Positions 36,896-45,488 of a stretch of DNA of 64,000 nucleotides are shown one piece after another. How positions within the stretch are numbered: position 1 is the stretch's first letter; each line of letters begins with the position of its first letter. This DNA comes from an uncultured Poribacteria bacterium (lineage in GTDB: Bacteria; Poribacteria; WGA-4E; WGA-3G), in NCBI GenBank assembly GCA_951828385.1, contig OX639973.1, forward strand, positions 6,364,845-6,428,844, read 5' to 3'. The notes below the pieces were generated by a model, which had not been told where the DNA came from, ran no database searches, and saw only the letters and a list, made by a program, of their open reading frames with translations. The position numbers were made by a program, and so were the translations under genes.

Positions 36896-37147
36896 CTACA
36901 GATGGAGTGCTTGACGTAGCCGCGACAGCAATCTCCCCGCGAAGTGTTTTTGCGGTGGATTATCTGGCTGTTCTTTAACTTTGATGTGGAGATCCACCAC
37001 GTTTTCAAAGGCAACACGTAGTTCTTCATCGGTATCTCCGTGGAAACAAATAATATCATCAATGTCTACTACATCGCCTACAAAGCACTCGTCTTCTTCG
37101 CTGTAGATGATTTCTGCTGTGTATCCTCGGTATGTCATTGTTTTCAT
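36896..37147 (-). CDS. hicB: HicB family antitoxin
   Basis: An 83-residue HicB: TYRGYTAEIIYSEEDECFVGDVVDIDDIICFHGDT (key pattern: YSEEDECFVG ... FHGDTDEELRVAFENVVD), which is the degenerate RNase H-like fold of HicB proteins. The C-terminus is short and basic-aromatic (RLLSRLRQALHL) and does not show a clear ribbon-helix-helix domain. It starts within the stop of the upstream hicA (ATGA overlap). Close copies occur at 39541 and 44974. Confidence 0.85.
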   Translation of the reverse strand: MKTMTYRGYTAEIIYSEEDECFVGDVVDIDDIICFHGDTDEELRVAFENVVDLHIKVKEQPDNPPQKHFAGRLLSRLRQALHL

Positions 37148-37410
37148 GGTGTTATTTCTACCTCTTCTAAAAAGTTTCGGGCACGCCTGATTTGATACCG
37201 CTTTATCTCTTTTCGGGGATGCGGGCGGTGAAACGTGGCAGTTTTTCCACGCAGTTTGAAATTCACGCCAGATCCACGGAGTTCTTCTTTTGTAGCACCA
37301 AGTGCCATGAAAAGGGCTTCAATCCGCCGCCATTGCAACGTAGCAGGGGTTTGTATGCTAAAGATAGCCTCCAATGTCTTTTGATGTTTTTTGTTTAAGC
37401 GTACATTCAT
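37144..37410 (-). CDS. hicA: HicA family toxin
   Basis: An 88-residue HicA-like protein with NKKHQKTLEAIF, LQWRRIEALFMALGATKEE, RGSGVNFKLRGKTATFHRPHPRKE and the C-terminal RNFLEEVEITP. HicA toxins are ribosome-independent mRNA interferases with a double-stranded RNA-binding fold; the His of FHRPHP sits at the usual active-site region. A consensus promoter (37441-37469) precedes it, and hicB overlaps its end by 4 bases. A close copy is at 45222. Confidence 0.85.
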   Translation of the reverse strand: MNVRLNKKHQKTLEAIFSIQTPATLQWRRIEALFMALGATKEELRGSGVNFKLRGKTATFHRPHPRKEIKRYQIRRARNFLEEVEITP

Positions 37411-39540: not shown

Positions 39541-39795
39541 CTATAGGTGAAAGGCTTGACGGAGACGCGCCAGAAATCTCCACGCGAAGTGCTTTTGCGG
39601 TGGGTTTTCTGGTTGTTCTTTGACTTTGATGTGGAGATCCACCACGCCTTCAAAGGCATCGCGCAGCTCAGCATCTGTGTCCCCGTGGAAACCTATAATA
39701 TCGTCACCAGGATCGACAACATGGCCAACAAAACACTCATCTTTGTCACTATAGATAATTTCCGCTGTATATCCTCTGGATGTCATTGTTTTCAT
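39541..39795 (-). CDS. hicB: HicB family antitoxin, orphan (hicA lost)
   Basis: An 84-residue HicB very similar to the one at 36896 and the one at 44974 (shared start MKTMTxRGYTAEIIYS, shared tail NPPQKHF...ARLRQ..HL). Upstream, where hicA should end, only the last codons remain: GAAAAGGTAGGAATAACACCATGA encodes EKVGITP followed by the overlapping TGA, the same arrangement as in the intact loci, but there is no HicA frame before it. So the toxin gene has been deleted up to its last seven or so codons, and the antitoxin kept. Confidence 0.8.
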   Translation of the reverse strand: MKTMTSRGYTAEIIYSDKDECFVGHVVDPGDDIIGFHGDTDAELRDAFEGVVDLHIKVKEQPENPPQKHFAWRFLARLRQAFHL

Positions 39796-40043: not shown

Positions 40044-40769
40044 TTACACACCTGTCAAATTTGAAAACTGGAGAGTGAGTTGAAGTGGAAGCGTTTCGGT
40101 TGGCGGAGGTTCGTCTTTCCCTGTTATGAGTGCAAGGTAATAATCCTTATCCCGAAACATTTGCTCATCAATCAAGCCATTTTTGGACAGTGAAACAAAT
40201 AAGGCAGCAGCACGCGCTTGACAGTTAATTGAGCGATTCGGATTGAAGACGATGTCCGAAAAACCTTGAAACACTTCAAGTTCTTTCATCATATCGATTT
40301 CCTGCTGGTACAACGCAGTCATGTATAACCAATCGTAGAAAGCCGTTTTAGGTTCAGTAGGAAAATCTTCTCCACAAAAGTTAAAAGCAACGAACTCTCC
40401 TGAATTCTTTAACCGTTCATCCGTTTTCGCTTCTCGACTTGACACCGAGTAGAGTTCATGATAAGGACCGCCGTTTTCAAACACTTTGCTGCCCTGATAT
40501 GCACATTCTATACTCATCCGTTTTCCATCTTGAGTTTTCAATGATAGATTAAAGGCACTCAATGAAACCCCGAGGCGTGATGTAGATTTGCTTGATATTT
40601 CCAAAATTGGAGAAATTTTATTTATCTTTTCAGCAGCTTCATGCAGAGACGCTATAGACTTTTGCAGCTGCGATTTCGCAAAGCCGGGGTGCCATTTAAA
40701 TTCTATATCTATCGCATCAACATACGGAAATCCACTGAAGTTAGGGGTAAAAATAGGACGTTTTGCCAT
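40044..40769 (-). CDS. NADAR-type antitoxin of a DarTG1-like system
   Basis: A 241-residue protein with the pattern I know from DarT1-associated NADAR antitoxins: RPIFTPNF at the start, IDIEFKWHPGFAKSQLQKSI, ISPILEISSKSTSRLGVSLSAFNLSL, AYQGSKVFENGGPYHELY, FYDWLYMTALYQQE and FSDIVFNPNRSINCQARAAAL. In characterised DarTG1 systems, the NADAR protein removes ADP-ribose from guanosine on DNA and neutralises DarT1. I start it at ATG 40769 (MAKRPIF); the frame continues 23 codons upstream, but they are encoded by an inverted-repeat element. The toxin gene is just beyond the element. Before insertion the two genes were about 5 bases apart. Confidence 0.78.
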   Translation of the reverse strand: MAKRPIFTPNFSGFPYVDAIDIEFKWHPGFAKSQLQKSIASLHEAAEKINKISPILEISSKSTSRLGVSLSAFNLSLKTQDGKRMSIECAYQGSKVFENGGPYHELYSVSSREAKTDERLKNSGEFVAFNFCGEDFPTEPKTAFYDWLYMTALYQQEIDMMKELEVFQGFSDIVFNPNRSINCQARAAALFVSLSKNGLIDEQMFRDKDYYLALITGKDEPPPTETLPLQLTLQFSNLTGV

Positions 40770-40776
40770 AGTTCTT

Positions 40777-40909
40777 ATACCATTTCTAAATAAAAGCTTG
40801 TCATTAACAAAAAACTGGCTCGTAGTAGCGCAATTCATTGCGCTCGGACATTCGGTTTCCTATGAGTTTCAAAATCTCTGAAATGCGAATTTATTTTTAG
40901 ATTTGGTAT
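40777..40909 (+). mobile_element. Miniature inverted-repeat element (133 bp), copy A
   Basis: Imperfect terminal inverted repeats: ATACCATTTCTAAATAAA at the left and, read inwards on the other strand, ATACCAAATCTAAAAATAAA at the right. The centre is the palindrome GCGCAATTCATTGCGC (40828-40843). The right flank TAGTTCCT and the left flank TAGTTCTT look like an 8-base target duplication with one mismatch. Excising the element gives CCTTTTTAGGAACTATGGC on the minus strand, joining the toxin stop TAG and the antitoxin ATG with the ribosome site AGGA in place. Related copies lie at 58596-58777 and, fragmentary, at 187-216 and 52267-52309. It has no coding capacity. Confidence 0.8.
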
Positions 40910-40915
40910 TAGTTC

Positions 40916-43468
40916 CTAAAAAGGTATATTGTCATCGTCAAAGGGGACATCGTCGTCATCTAAAATGTCATCTTGCCAGACTACTTGACCCCGCCGATAT
41001 TGGAAATATTGCTGGTTATGGAGAAGCCTTTCAGGATTAATCCATGGATTATTATCACACCACTGTTTCAAAATGGTCTCATCGTAAAAATGGACTTCCT
41101 TGATATAATCTGATGGAATTTGGTCAAAAACCAGAATTTCTGCTTGCGGATGCGTTGGGTAATCGTCCGATATCTGCGAAGATTGACGTTCATAAACATT
41201 CCCTTTGGTGTCGCGGCAAACGTCTACAAACATGCCTTCTAACGCATCAGGTTTTTTCCTATCTTCCAATGGAATGTAACGAACGGTATTAGAAGCAGCG
41301 TTTTCTTGGCAAAAGGCACAATCTAATTCCCATAACACTTTTGCATCAAGAAGTAGAACAATCCATTGAGAATAATCAGGAGGACTCCCCGTGTTAGGTC
41401 GGCTGAATTTGTTAAACAGTAGATAGTTTGGAAAACTGATACTCAAACAAATTGCTTCCTTATGTCCGTCAACACGCTCCCAATCATTCGGTGCAAACTG
41501 TTGTCCGTGTTTTTTGAGTAGACTCTGATGACCCAGCAAACCTTCATGTAGAATATTCCGTAGATTTTTAATTTGGGTAAAATGAACAAGTGTTGTGATG
41601 CTACGGTCTTCGCAAATCTTTTGTATTTGAGATTCGCGATTCTGAAATTCGGAATCTTTTTCCTCAAGAGTGGTTTCATTGTTATCACTGTCTACATCAA
41701 AAAATGGATTGTTTTTTGTTTTCTTGATACCTCTATCTACATCCCACAGCAAAACAGTGCCATCACTACTGCAGCTAGCGACTGTCCGGCCATCAGGACT
41801 GAAGGATATACTTACAACGACACCATTATGTCCTGTAAATGTTTTAAGGTGTTTTCCAGTTTCTATATCCCAGACTAGTACCGTACCGTCACCATTGCCA
41901 CTAACCATGAGGCGACCATTTGGACTGAACGCCACATTAACATTACATAACGTCCGGGACGATGGATTATGTCCTGTAAGTGTTTTTATATTTTCTCCAG
42001 TTTGCACATCCCAGATTCGCACCGTTCCATCATAGCTGCCACTAGCGATGAAAAGGTTATTGCCACTGAAACATGTGCTATGGACACCGGAGATGTGCCC
42101 TATCAGCGTTTTAATGTGTTTTCCAGTTTGCACATCCCAGATTCGCACCGTTCCATCATGGCTGCCACTAGCGATGAAAAGGTTATTGCCACTGAAGGTT
42201 ACACTCTGAATCATCTTTGTATGCCCCGCTAGTGTTTTAATGTGTTTTCCAGTTTCGATGTCCCATACCTGTACCTTGTTTCCATCAATATCACCAGCAA
42301 GGAAACGACTATCGGCACTGAAACATGCACAGATACTGAAACCGTGTTGGACTGTCAGCGTTTTAATGTGTTTTCCAGTTTGCACATTCCGTAGTTCTAC
42401 ATAAACCTCTGTGGCCCATTCGTCTACATCTGTTAGTGCCATGGCGATGAGACGATTATTCGGGCTGATTATTACACCATAGGAACCATGGCTCGATAAG
42501 TTAGTCTTTGTAAATGTTTTAATATTTTTTCCAGTTTCTATATCCCAGACTTGCATGATTCTGTCATCGCCGCTACTGACGATAAAACGACTGTTGCCAC
42601 TGAATGACACACTTGTGAATCCTCCGGTATGTTCTATGAATGTTTTAATATTTTTTTCAGTTTCTACATCCCACACCCGCGCCCTATGATGATAGTAGTT
42701 CATAGCGATGAGGCGACCATTCGGACTGAATGTTACATTGTCGGGGCTATATCCTGTGAATGTTTTAATATTTTTTCCAGTTTCTACATTCCAAACTCTC
42801 ACCGTCCCGTCCCTACCACCACTGGCGATAAAACGGCTATCATCATTAAATGCTACACACGTGACTTTATACCTGTGTCCAACGAGCGTTTTGATATTTT
42901 TTCCAGTTTTTACATTCCACACTTGCACCGTCCCATCTAAGCCACCACCACTAGCGATGAGGCGACCATTCGGACTGAGTGCTACATTATTATCTAACCA
43001 TCCCTTATGTCCAATGAGTGTTTTAAGGTGTTTTCCAGTTTCTACATCCCATAAACGGATTTCGTCTTTATACATACCGACACTAGCGAGGATATGGTTA
43101 TTAGGACTGAAAGATACATACTTAACACTTGAAGTATGTCCAGTAAGCGTTTTTAGAGGCTTACCTGTTTCGATGTCCCACAAACGGACAGTTTTGTCTC
43201 CACTGCTACTAACGAGCGTCCGGCTATCGGGACTGAATGACACGCTTTTAACGCTTTGTGTATGTCCTAGGATGATGTTAAGTTCTTCACCTGTATCTGC
43301 ATCGTAAAGCCAAATCCCAATCGAACTGCCTACCGCCAGAAGCCTGCCATCCGCGGAATATGCTATATCATTTATCCAGCCTTTACCGAGGCGGGCTTTA
43401 GCACCTTCGGGTAAATTCCATCGGGTGTAATCTTGAGTGGGGTGATTTATTTTCATGGATTTATTCAA
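40916..43468 (-). CDS. WD40-repeat protein fused to a DarT-type ADP-ribosyltransferase
   Basis: An 850-residue fusion. Residues 20-590 or so hold 13 WD40 repeats (blades such as LWDVETGKHLKTLIGH), enough for about two propellers. After a charged linker, residues 620-830 match the DarT family, DarT1 type: VH629FTQIKNLRNILHEGLL, EAICLSISFPNYLLFNKF, VLLLDAKVLWELDCAFCQEN, RYIPLEDRKKPDALEGMF and HPQAE777ILVFDQIPSDYI, where H629 and E777 correspond to the NAD-binding His and catalytic Glu. DarT toxins ADP-ribosylate bases of single-stranded DNA (DarT1: guanosine). The protein ends DDDDVPFDDDNIPF, two copies of an SSB-type acidic C-terminal tip. The NADAR antitoxin gene follows, separated by a miniature element. 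A divergent DUF6602 gene starts 195 bases upstream. The fusion to WD40 repeats is unusual to me. Confidence 0.85.
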   Translation of the reverse strand: MNKSMKINHPTQDYTRWNLPEGAKARLGKGWINDIAYSADGRLLAVGSSIGIWLYDADTGEELNIILGHTQSVKSVSFSPDSRTLVSSSGDKTVRLWDIETGKPLKTLTGHTSSVKYVSFSPNNHILASVGMYKDEIRLWDVETGKHLKTLIGHKGWLDNNVALSPNGRLIASGGGLDGTVQVWNVKTGKNIKTLVGHRYKVTCVAFNDDSRFIASGGRDGTVRVWNVETGKNIKTFTGYSPDNVTFSPNGRLIAMNYYHHRARVWDVETEKNIKTFIEHTGGFTSVSFSGNSRFIVSSGDDRIMQVWDIETGKNIKTFTKTNLSSHGSYGVIISPNNRLIAMALTDVDEWATEVYVELRNVQTGKHIKTLTVQHGFSICACFSADSRFLAGDIDGNKVQVWDIETGKHIKTLAGHTKMIQSVTFSGNNLFIASGSHDGTVRIWDVQTGKHIKTLIGHISGVHSTCFSGNNLFIASGSYDGTVRIWDVQTGENIKTLTGHNPSSRTLCNVNVAFSPNGRLMVSGNGDGTVLVWDIETGKHLKTFTGHNGVVVSISFSPDGRTVASCSSDGTVLLWDVDRGIKKTKNNPFFDVDSDNNETTLEEKDSEFQNRESQIQKICEDRSITTLVHFTQIKNLRNILHEGLLGHQSLLKKHGQQFAPNDWERVDGHKEAICLSISFPNYLLFNKFSRPNTGSPPDYSQWIVLLLDAKVLWELDCAFCQENAASNTVRYIPLEDRKKPDALEGMFVDVCRDTKGNVYERQSSQISDDYPTHPQAEILVFDQIPSDYIKEVHFYDETILKQWCDNNPWINPERLLHNQQYFQYRRGQVVWQDDILDDDDVPFDDDNIPF

Positions 43469-43663: not shown

Positions 43664-44587
43664 ATGGAAGAAAATTTCGATCCAATCGCTTACGCAAATC
43701 TTGTAGGGCAGGAGTTAGTTCTGTCGTTTGATAAAGCCGGGTTAGGCACTACTCCCGGGTTAGTTGGTTCCGCAAAAGAGTATCCCGTTAGAACAAAATT
43801 GGAACACATCCTTCCTTCAGGAATCGGAGTAGGATCTGGTTGTGTCATTGACAGCTATGGAAATACCAGTAAGCAGATGGATGTTGTCCTTTATGAGAAG
43901 AACATTTGTCCCGTCTATTCGATAAATGATACGCCTGACACAACATACTATCCTTGTGAAGGAGTTGTGGCTGTTGGAGAAATTAAAAGTTCCCTCAGTT
44001 CTGATGAATTGGAGGATATCTTCCTCAAAATTGAATCTGTAAAACGGCTAAAACGGTTTTCAACCGAAACTCCACGTCCCATTCGGGTCGGTGAGTTGAG
44101 GTTTCCATATCGACACTATGGAACAACGGGACCTGCAACACATGGCAACCCTGGAACAGATTATAATCAGCAAGGCAACCCGCTGGATCAAATCTTTGGA
44201 TTTGCGCTTGCTGGTAAACTAAAACTTAAGCCTCAGAATTTGTGTGAGAAGTTTGTTAATCATACTAATGAGATAGAATCAATCTTAACACCGAATCTAA
44301 TAGTGACGTTAGACCAAGGGATTCTATGTCCTGCGACTATTGGGGAAGAAAGTAAGGAAGATCAAATAAATATATCGATTCAAGATGCAACAGGGATATA
44401 CCATGTAAATAAAGATGATGAAAATTTCCGATTCCTTTTATCACAGATTTACGACATATACAACCACGGACGCACCGTGTCGGCCTCAGCATTTGGGCGT
44501 TATTTTGATTATGAAGGGATGTTGATGTTGCCAGAAGGCGGAATATATATTCCAATCAAAGAACAGATGCTAGAATCAGATGAGTGA
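43664..44587 (+). CDS. DUF6602-like PD-(D/E)xK nuclease-fold protein
   Basis: A 307-residue soluble protein. The segment STRKLEHILPSGIGVGSGCV-type N-terminal part (here RTKLEHILPSGIGVGSG), KQMDVVLYEKNICPVY and EGVVAVGEIKSSLSSDEL give the acidic-then-ExK pattern of PD-(D/E)xK nucleases (D in QMDVVL, E-x-K in GEIKS), as found in DUF6602. DUF6602 proteins occur in many defence-like contexts, function unknown. It is divergent from the WD40-DarT gene, with a 195-base shared intergenic region. No methylase is adjacent. Confidence 0.65.
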   Translation: MEENFDPIAYANLVGQELVLSFDKAGLGTTPGLVGSAKEYPVRTKLEHILPSGIGVGSGCVIDSYGNTSKQMDVVLYEKNICPVYSINDTPDTTYYPCEGVVAVGEIKSSLSSDELEDIFLKIESVKRLKRFSTETPRPIRVGELRFPYRHYGTTGPATHGNPGTDYNQQGNPLDQIFGFALAGKLKLKPQNLCEKFVNHTNEIESILTPNLIVTLDQGILCPATIGEESKEDQINISIQDATGIYHVNKDDENFRFLLSQIYDIYNHGRTVSASAFGRYFDYEGMLMLPEGGIYIPIKEQMLESDE

Positions 44588-44973: not shown

Positions 44974-45225
44974 CTATAAGTGGAGTACTTGACGCAGCCG
45001 CGTCAACAGCCTCCGGACGTAGGGCTTTTGCGGAAGGTCCTCCGGTGCCTCGCGAGTTCTAATATAAAGGTCTACCATATCCTCAAACGCAACACGCAGC
45101 TCATCATCGGTGTCCCCGTGGAAACCCGATATAGCATCAATATTGACAATACGGCCAACAAAACATTCATCTTCGTCACTATAAATAATTTCCGCTGTAT
45201 AGCCTTTATAAGTCATTGTTTTCAT
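44974..45225 (-). CDS. hicB: HicB family antitoxin
   Basis: An 83-residue HicB closely related to the genes at 36896 and 39541 (MKTMTYKGYTAEIIYSDEDE start; FHGDTDDELRVAFEDMVD). The C-terminal segment EAPEDLPQKPYVRRLLTR differs most. It overlaps the hicA stop by 4 bases. The pair is complete and looks functional. Confidence 0.85.
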   Translation of the reverse strand: MKTMTYKGYTAEIIYSDEDECFVGRIVNIDAISGFHGDTDDELRVAFEDMVDLYIRTREAPEDLPQKPYVRRLLTRLRQVLHL

Positions 45226-45488
45226 GGTGTTATTCCTACCTCTTCTAAAAATTCTCGTGCTTCTCGAACTTGATATCGTTTCGCTTCTTTCCGCGGATGT
45301 GGCCGATGAAACATGGCCTCTTTATCTTTCAGTTTAAAGGTAACGACTGATCCGCGCCCTTCCTCTTTTGTGGCACCAAGCGTCATGAAAAGTGCTTCAA
45401 TTCGCCGCCATTGCAACGTCGCCGGAACTTGTGGACTAAAAATAACCGCTAATGTTCTTTGATGCTTTTTGTTTAAGCGTCGATTCAT
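45222..45488 (-). CDS. hicA: HicA family toxin
   Basis: An 88-residue HicA close to the one at 37144: NKKHQRTLAVIFSPQVPATL, QWRRIEALFMTLGATKEEG, RGSVVTFKLKDKEAMFHRPHP, and LEEVGITP at the end. Intact. A perfect inverted repeat lies 25-46 bases upstream, which might be an operator. It sits within the remains of a MazEF locus. Confidence 0.85.
   Translation of the reverse strand: MNRRLNKKHQRTLAVIFSPQVPATLQWRRIEALFMTLGATKEEGRGSVVTFKLKDKEAMFHRPHPRKEAKRYQVREAREFLEEVGITP

Follow-up and report, generated by a model that had tools for sequence, protein, structure and literature searches.

A toxin gene on the minus strand of a 64,000-nucleotide stretch of an uncultured Poribacteria genome (the window) encodes a fusion of a WD40 domain with the ADP-ribosyltransferase DarT1, and the protein ends almost exactly as the host single-stranded DNA-binding protein (SSB) does. 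Together with the NADAR antitoxin gene that follows it, the gene appears to form a DarTG1-type module, and the toxin tail has probably acquired a mimic of the SSB C-terminal tip (SSB-Ct) that would dock on SSB-interacting proteins. That such a mimic takes DarT to the SSB interactome is partly supported, and better than any other reading, by the sequence evidence, because the tip persists across a clade, is conserved in the graded manner of SSB, matches the local SSB and is independent of the WD40 domain, and because L063, a relative without a tip, has an SSB oligonucleotide/oligosaccharide-binding (OB) fold.

The C-terminal tail and the host SSB

The toxin gene and the two motifs in its tail are located as follows.

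40916..43468, minus strand: WD40-DarT1 toxin fusion with tail, 850 amino acids (aa), TTG start (open reading frame; WD40, PF00400; DarT, PF14487)
40919..40939, minus strand: terminal SSB-Ct-like tip DDDNIPF-COOH, last seven codons (translation)
40940..40960, minus strand: inner tip-like copy DDDDVPF, not C-terminal (translation; FNDDGIPLS or similar at this place in relatives)

In the translated frame the C-terminus reads VVWQDDILDDDDVPFDDDNIPF, i.e. ...DDDDVPF-DDDNIPF; a longer excerpt of the tail is DILDDDDVPFDDDNIPF. The codons of the tip are GAC GAT GAC AAT ATA CCT TTT, followed by a TAG stop at 40916-40918. DDDNIPF has the acidic run and then the I-P-F at the extreme C-terminus that are characteristic of an SSB-Ct. 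It is carried on a linker that is predicted to be flexible, with predicted local distance difference test (pLDDT) values of 58 and 46 across the final 20 residues and a length that varies in the family. The host genome (6.66 Mb, one contig) has a single SSB gene, and its protein ends SATDDDIPF. An earlier sequence-only reading of the window had described a near-copy of the SSB tip at the end of the fusion (compared there with DFDDDIPF of the Escherichia coli SSB) with a second copy, DDDDVPF, just before it at 40940-40960; both are present. Neither of the two conditions that it had set for refutation holds: the ending recurs in many homologues, and the organism's own SSB tail (ATDDDIPF) is nearly identical.

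GAY-RAY-ATH-CCN-TTY-TRR, which encodes D-(D/N)-I-P-F and a stop, has exactly two matches in the 6.66-Mb genome, one at the 3' end of ssb and one at that of the toxin gene. The same pattern reversed, used as the control, has no match in the host genome and 11 across all 85 genomes of the phylum sample. Since both matches of the forward pattern sit at functional gene ends, the toxin ending exceeds chance. A recent origin of the tip by capture from the 3' end of ssb was rejected, because the DarT tips have a common codon pattern and TAG stop of their own (ATA CCT TTT TAG versus ATC CCG TTT TAA in ssb). The SSB OB-fold (PF00436) is not present in the window toxin; the sole PF00436 match of the genome is the true ssb. 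A PDB sequence search using the tip alone gave no match, which is no surprise for a query of this length.

Constraint on the tail is graded. Parsimony reconstruction over the 10 tipped rows of the alignment gives no change at F or P, one at I and two to three at each of the three acidic positions, rising to six to seven at the next three (linker) positions; the mean for core columns is 2.5. The tip has persisted in a clade whose core tree has a length of 4.5 substitutions per site, and the sequence and length of the linker vary freely among relatives. This constraint resembles that on SSB and is what a docking tip at the C-terminus of a disordered tether should show.

When an SSB tip docks, its partner protein buries the terminal Phe and holds the alpha-carboxyl group of that residue (PMC10164576). 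Because docking requires a free terminal Phe carboxylate, the inner DDDDVPF cannot serve as another tip by the established docking mode. Its position is degenerate in most relatives (FNDDGIPLS or similar), and the number of tip-like copies varies, with three in L050 and one, terminal, in L052. The simplest history of the tail would be repeated extension past an older tip, the inner one then decaying. The contribution of the upstream Phe of the E. coli SSB tip has been described (PMC10143822), and the inner Phe might stand in for it. The proposal of the sequence-only reading that tandem tips serve as two recruiting elements is therefore not upheld, as only the terminal copy has a free Phe carboxylate and the inner copy is degenerate in most relatives. 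Its wider proposal, that the tip targets the toxin to the SSB interactome, survives as far as mimicry is concerned and loses the tandem recruitment.

The DarT1 module and the distribution of the tip

The domains of the toxin and the antitoxin gene are as follows.

41669..43381, minus strand: WD40 beta-propeller repeats, approximately residues 30-600 (Pfam WD40, nine stretches, many beta-propeller models)
41063..41584, minus strand: DarT ADP-ribosyltransferase domain, Pfam match (PF14487, E 3.4e-19)
40044..40838, minus strand: NADAR-DarT1 antitoxin, directly downstream of the toxin (PF22397, E 8.3e-87)

The nearest solved structure by sequence is that of E. coli C7 DarT1 (8baq; phmmer, E 1.2e-31). 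The same entry is the top Foldseek match of the predicted DarT-domain model (mean pLDDT 86), with E 6e-19 and template modelling (TM) scores of 0.70/0.83. Residues R52, D54, M71, N104 and E152 are important in C7 DarT1 (PMC11543638). In the alignment, R52, D54, N104 and E152 have identical counterparts in the window toxin; the counterpart of M71 is Leu, both here and in the nearest relatives. The original assignment to DarT holds by the PF14487 match. Because the toxin is of DarT1 type and the next gene encodes a NADAR-DarT1 antitoxin, the locus is predicted to be a DarT1-NADAR (DarTG1) module, in which the toxin would ADP-ribosylate guanine of ssDNA and NADAR would undo this modification. NADAR adjoins DarT in nearly all relatives, and its homologous start is probably the MAKRPIF at 40769. 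The WD40 domain would be a separate, interchangeable N-terminal module, perhaps with a sensor role.

DarT1 homologues are present in 14 of the 85 phylum genomes. Sampling beyond Poribacteria was modest and comprised 29 loci from genome contigs, 6 viral contigs and 27 plasmid records (6 read). The phylum has 13 distinct copies with a free C-terminus, meaning one that is not fused to another domain, and many share the acidic I/M-P-F end: nine have an in-frame end made up of an acidic run plus IPF or MPF, three have a tip or its remnant (DEDDIPF, DEDDIPF, EDDILF) right behind an in-frame stop, and one (L015, the same gene as L063) is without any tip. The three with an in-frame stop (L010/L055, L016/L018 and L017/L053:2061-2807) would reflect either recent loss of the tip or read-through of the stop to yield tipped and tipless forms.

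In a tree calculated from the core alone, with the tail excluded, the tip is confined to one supported clade of 13 rows (support 96/95), 12 from Poribacteria and one a transferred copy (L061). Ten of these rows have the acidic I/M-P-F end, two have a tip or remnant behind an in-frame stop, and L063 is tipless, the only one of the clade to have a free end with not even a remnant of a tip. The tip is absent from all 15 tree rows outside the clade, and its label changes on the tree fewer times than in any of 500 shuffles. Neither the six plasmid-borne DarT1 copies read, all outside the clade, nor any of 26 DarT2-type proteins of the same phylum has it, and the phage records gave no match. The tip as a general DarT feature was rejected on these counts (0/21 DarT1 outside the clade, 0/26 DarT2-type). 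It is inherited within the DarT1 clade. The tip was also considered as a feature linked to WD40. This was rejected: stand-alone DarT1 proteins without WD40, L057 (243 aa) and L059 (289 aa), retain the tip, which is therefore a part of DarT rather than of WD40.

Two members of the clade bear on the relation to SSB. L061 is filed under another phylum, is nested in the poribacterial DarT1 clade and ends GEEIPF. Its Ile, Pro, Phe and stop codons (ATT CCC TTC TGA) are each unlike the codons most often used there in Poribacteria. Its own genome encodes an SSB with the end DDEIPF, so in this one case the toxin tip seems to follow the local SSB. No additional tipped DarT1 was returned when the L061 protein was searched against 64 genomes of another phylum, those around the Latescibacteria genome. 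In L063 (L063:4605-5663, G035:C168), an SSB OB-fold lies directly N-terminal of DarT1 in one 353-aa frame, with NADAR adjacent. The SSB domain is matched by PF00436 above cutoff (E 4.7e-10), its top PDB matches are E. coli SSB structures, and it is approximately 30-37% identical to poribacterial SSBs. The L063 fusion appears to link DarT1 to SSB function.

Proposed docking and competing explanations

DarT requires single-stranded DNA (ssDNA), and ssDNA in the cell is wrapped by SSB. The free C-terminal Pro-Phe of the toxin would enter the SSB-Ct pockets of SSB-interacting proteins of the host or a phage (RecO, PriA, RecG, RecJ, primase etc.), where it would compete with SSB, whose tip is the docking site of many repair and replication proteins (PMC10164576). 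Docking would put the ssDNA-modifying enzyme at the exposed, SSB-covered ssDNA of forks and gaps. Cells that lose recF become more sensitive to DarT, and RecFOR is implicated in tolerating DarT lesions (PMC7003065). RecO, the member of RecFOR that binds the SSB tip, is encoded in the host genome, so a toxin that occupied it, in a pathway by which cells survive DarT lesions, could be more toxic. We infer both the docking partners and the effect on toxicity. We lean slightly towards a broader statement, that the DarT1 lineage uses either an SSB tail (10 members) or an OB-fold head (one) to reach SSB-coated ssDNA, the same tip being sporadic on other defence-like proteins.

Several observations weigh against the proposed docking. 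E. coli C7 DarT1 is a short, tailless form (208-aa construct), so the tip is dispensable for basic toxicity. The three copies with an in-frame stop before the tail indicate that its loss is tolerated or that the copies are decaying. The SSB-DarT1 fusion is known from one case in one draft genome, and the alignment of the host RecO is too weak to judge an SSB-Ct pocket.

The acidic tail may instead be selected to serve its own module, either by binding NADAR or by mimicking ssDNA and so keeping the toxin inactive. It is highly acidic and always found in a DarT-NADAR pair, and the NADAR literature cites ssDNA mimicry by the DarG C-terminal domain on DarT2. Charge mimicry, however, needs no exact terminal I-P-F, yet P and F never change, and the ending matches SSB down to the E-type of the L061 genome. 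L063 retains NADAR without the tail. In the predicted model the tail has very low confidence (last block pLDDT 46) and is disordered, and does not dock on the catalytic core in an ordered way; an ordered, docked tail is thus unsupported, and the model speaks mildly against self-inhibition. We consider a role within the module unlikely.

Free hydrophobic C-termini can act as signals for proteases, and the tip could be a proteolysis tag that holds toxin levels low. Such a tag would not account for the acidic run typical of SSB, for the similarity of the ending to SSB or for the fused SSB domain of L063, and seems improbable.

A by-product of constraint on the DNA is more improbable still. The DarT stop forms TTTTTAGGAG in most loci, as part of the NADAR ribosome-binding site, 6-10 bases ahead of the NADAR start in nearly all tipped poribacterial loci, and such an overlap could preserve the Pro-Phe codons without any protein function. 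In the window, approximately 146 bp (40770-40915) separate the DarT stop from the homologous NADAR start, compared with approximately 10 bases in most other poribacterial loci read, yet the toxin retains its tip. L063 has AAGGAG without Pro-Phe codons, whereas L061 has EEIPF by other codons and no AGGAG. Conservation, with synonymous changes, also extends to the Ile and acidic positions that lie upstream of the overlap. The overlap as an artefact was rejected, being contradicted by the window, L061 and L063. Chance resemblance, for which the shortness of the motif might speak, is contradicted by the two genome matches at functional gene ends and by persistence of the tip through the clade, and its probability is negligible.

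Other tipped proteins, neighbouring genes and known systems

Similar ends occur on non-SSB proteins of Poribacteria. The FRG-TPR proteins L111 and L122 end DDIPF and L147 ends SDIPF; a large zinc-ribbon protein, with three close orthologues (L161-L163), also ends DDIPF. The zinc-ribbon protein has no Pfam match and appears to resemble a nuclease. As most members of the FRG-TPR and zinc-ribbon families are without the tip, it seems to have been gained sporadically there. L124 and L128 (approximately 210 aa) are further non-SSB proteins with D-rich IPF ends, and L095 (G009:C18) is a 246-aa frame with a possible membrane segment, a long basic stretch and a doubled tip-like end, DYEIPFDDDIPF. Among the families found here, the DarT1 clade is the one with the most persistent tip.

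Two other DarT1 fusions are unusual. A 964-aa frame (L062:4926-7817, G014:C37) consists of two DarT1 domains and a complete sigma-70 factor (regions 1.2-4), and the genome has a separate sigma-70 of 562 aa. The fusion might direct DarT to promoter DNA in its open state, or might be an artefact. In L053:4146-6389 (G029), a WD40 remnant, a macrodomain, DarT1 and NADAR share one frame, which would be a toxin fused to two different domains that remove ADP-ribose; another DarT1-NADAR pair is located 3 kb from this four-part fusion.

Divergent from the toxin gene in the window is a gene for a DUF6602 protein with similarity to NucC-like nucleases (43664-44587), which was not seen next to DarT1 in the other loci examined. 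HicA toxin genes (PF07927), each with a small HicB-like partner gene, are located at 36896-37410 and 44974-45488, and an apparently orphan HicB-like copy at 39541-39795. In L050, L051 and L056, HicB-like copies similar to these are next to DarT1.

The open-access literature searched has no report of an SSB-like tip or an SSB fusion on any DarT. Toxins that modify ssDNA face a substrate wrapped by SSB, and the tip mimic and the SSB fusion suggest a solution, to join the SSB interactome. The proposed mimicry predicts dependence on one terminal Phe, and further proteins with SSB-like tips may be findable from their last six residues.

The module shares with DarTG1 of E. coli C7 and Geobacter lovleyi (PMC11543638) the DarT1 fold, the counterparts of R52, D54, N104 and E152, and a NADAR gene directly downstream. 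It differs in the N-terminal WD40 fusion, the tail with its SSB-like tip, the Leu in place of M71 and the 146-bp gap to the likely NADAR start. The tail resembles a bacterial SSB-Ct in its disordered linker, acidic run and I-P-F with a free carboxylate, and is nearly identical to the host SSB tip; unlike SSB, it is carried by an enzyme without an OB fold and has a degenerate inner copy, and whereas SSB has four tips per tetramer, the toxin has one per polypeptide. Deinococcus DdrB (PMC3834827) is a precedent for a claimed SSB-like tail on a non-SSB protein, but DdrB itself binds and anneals ssDNA, and its motif was reported to be dispensable for radioresistance.
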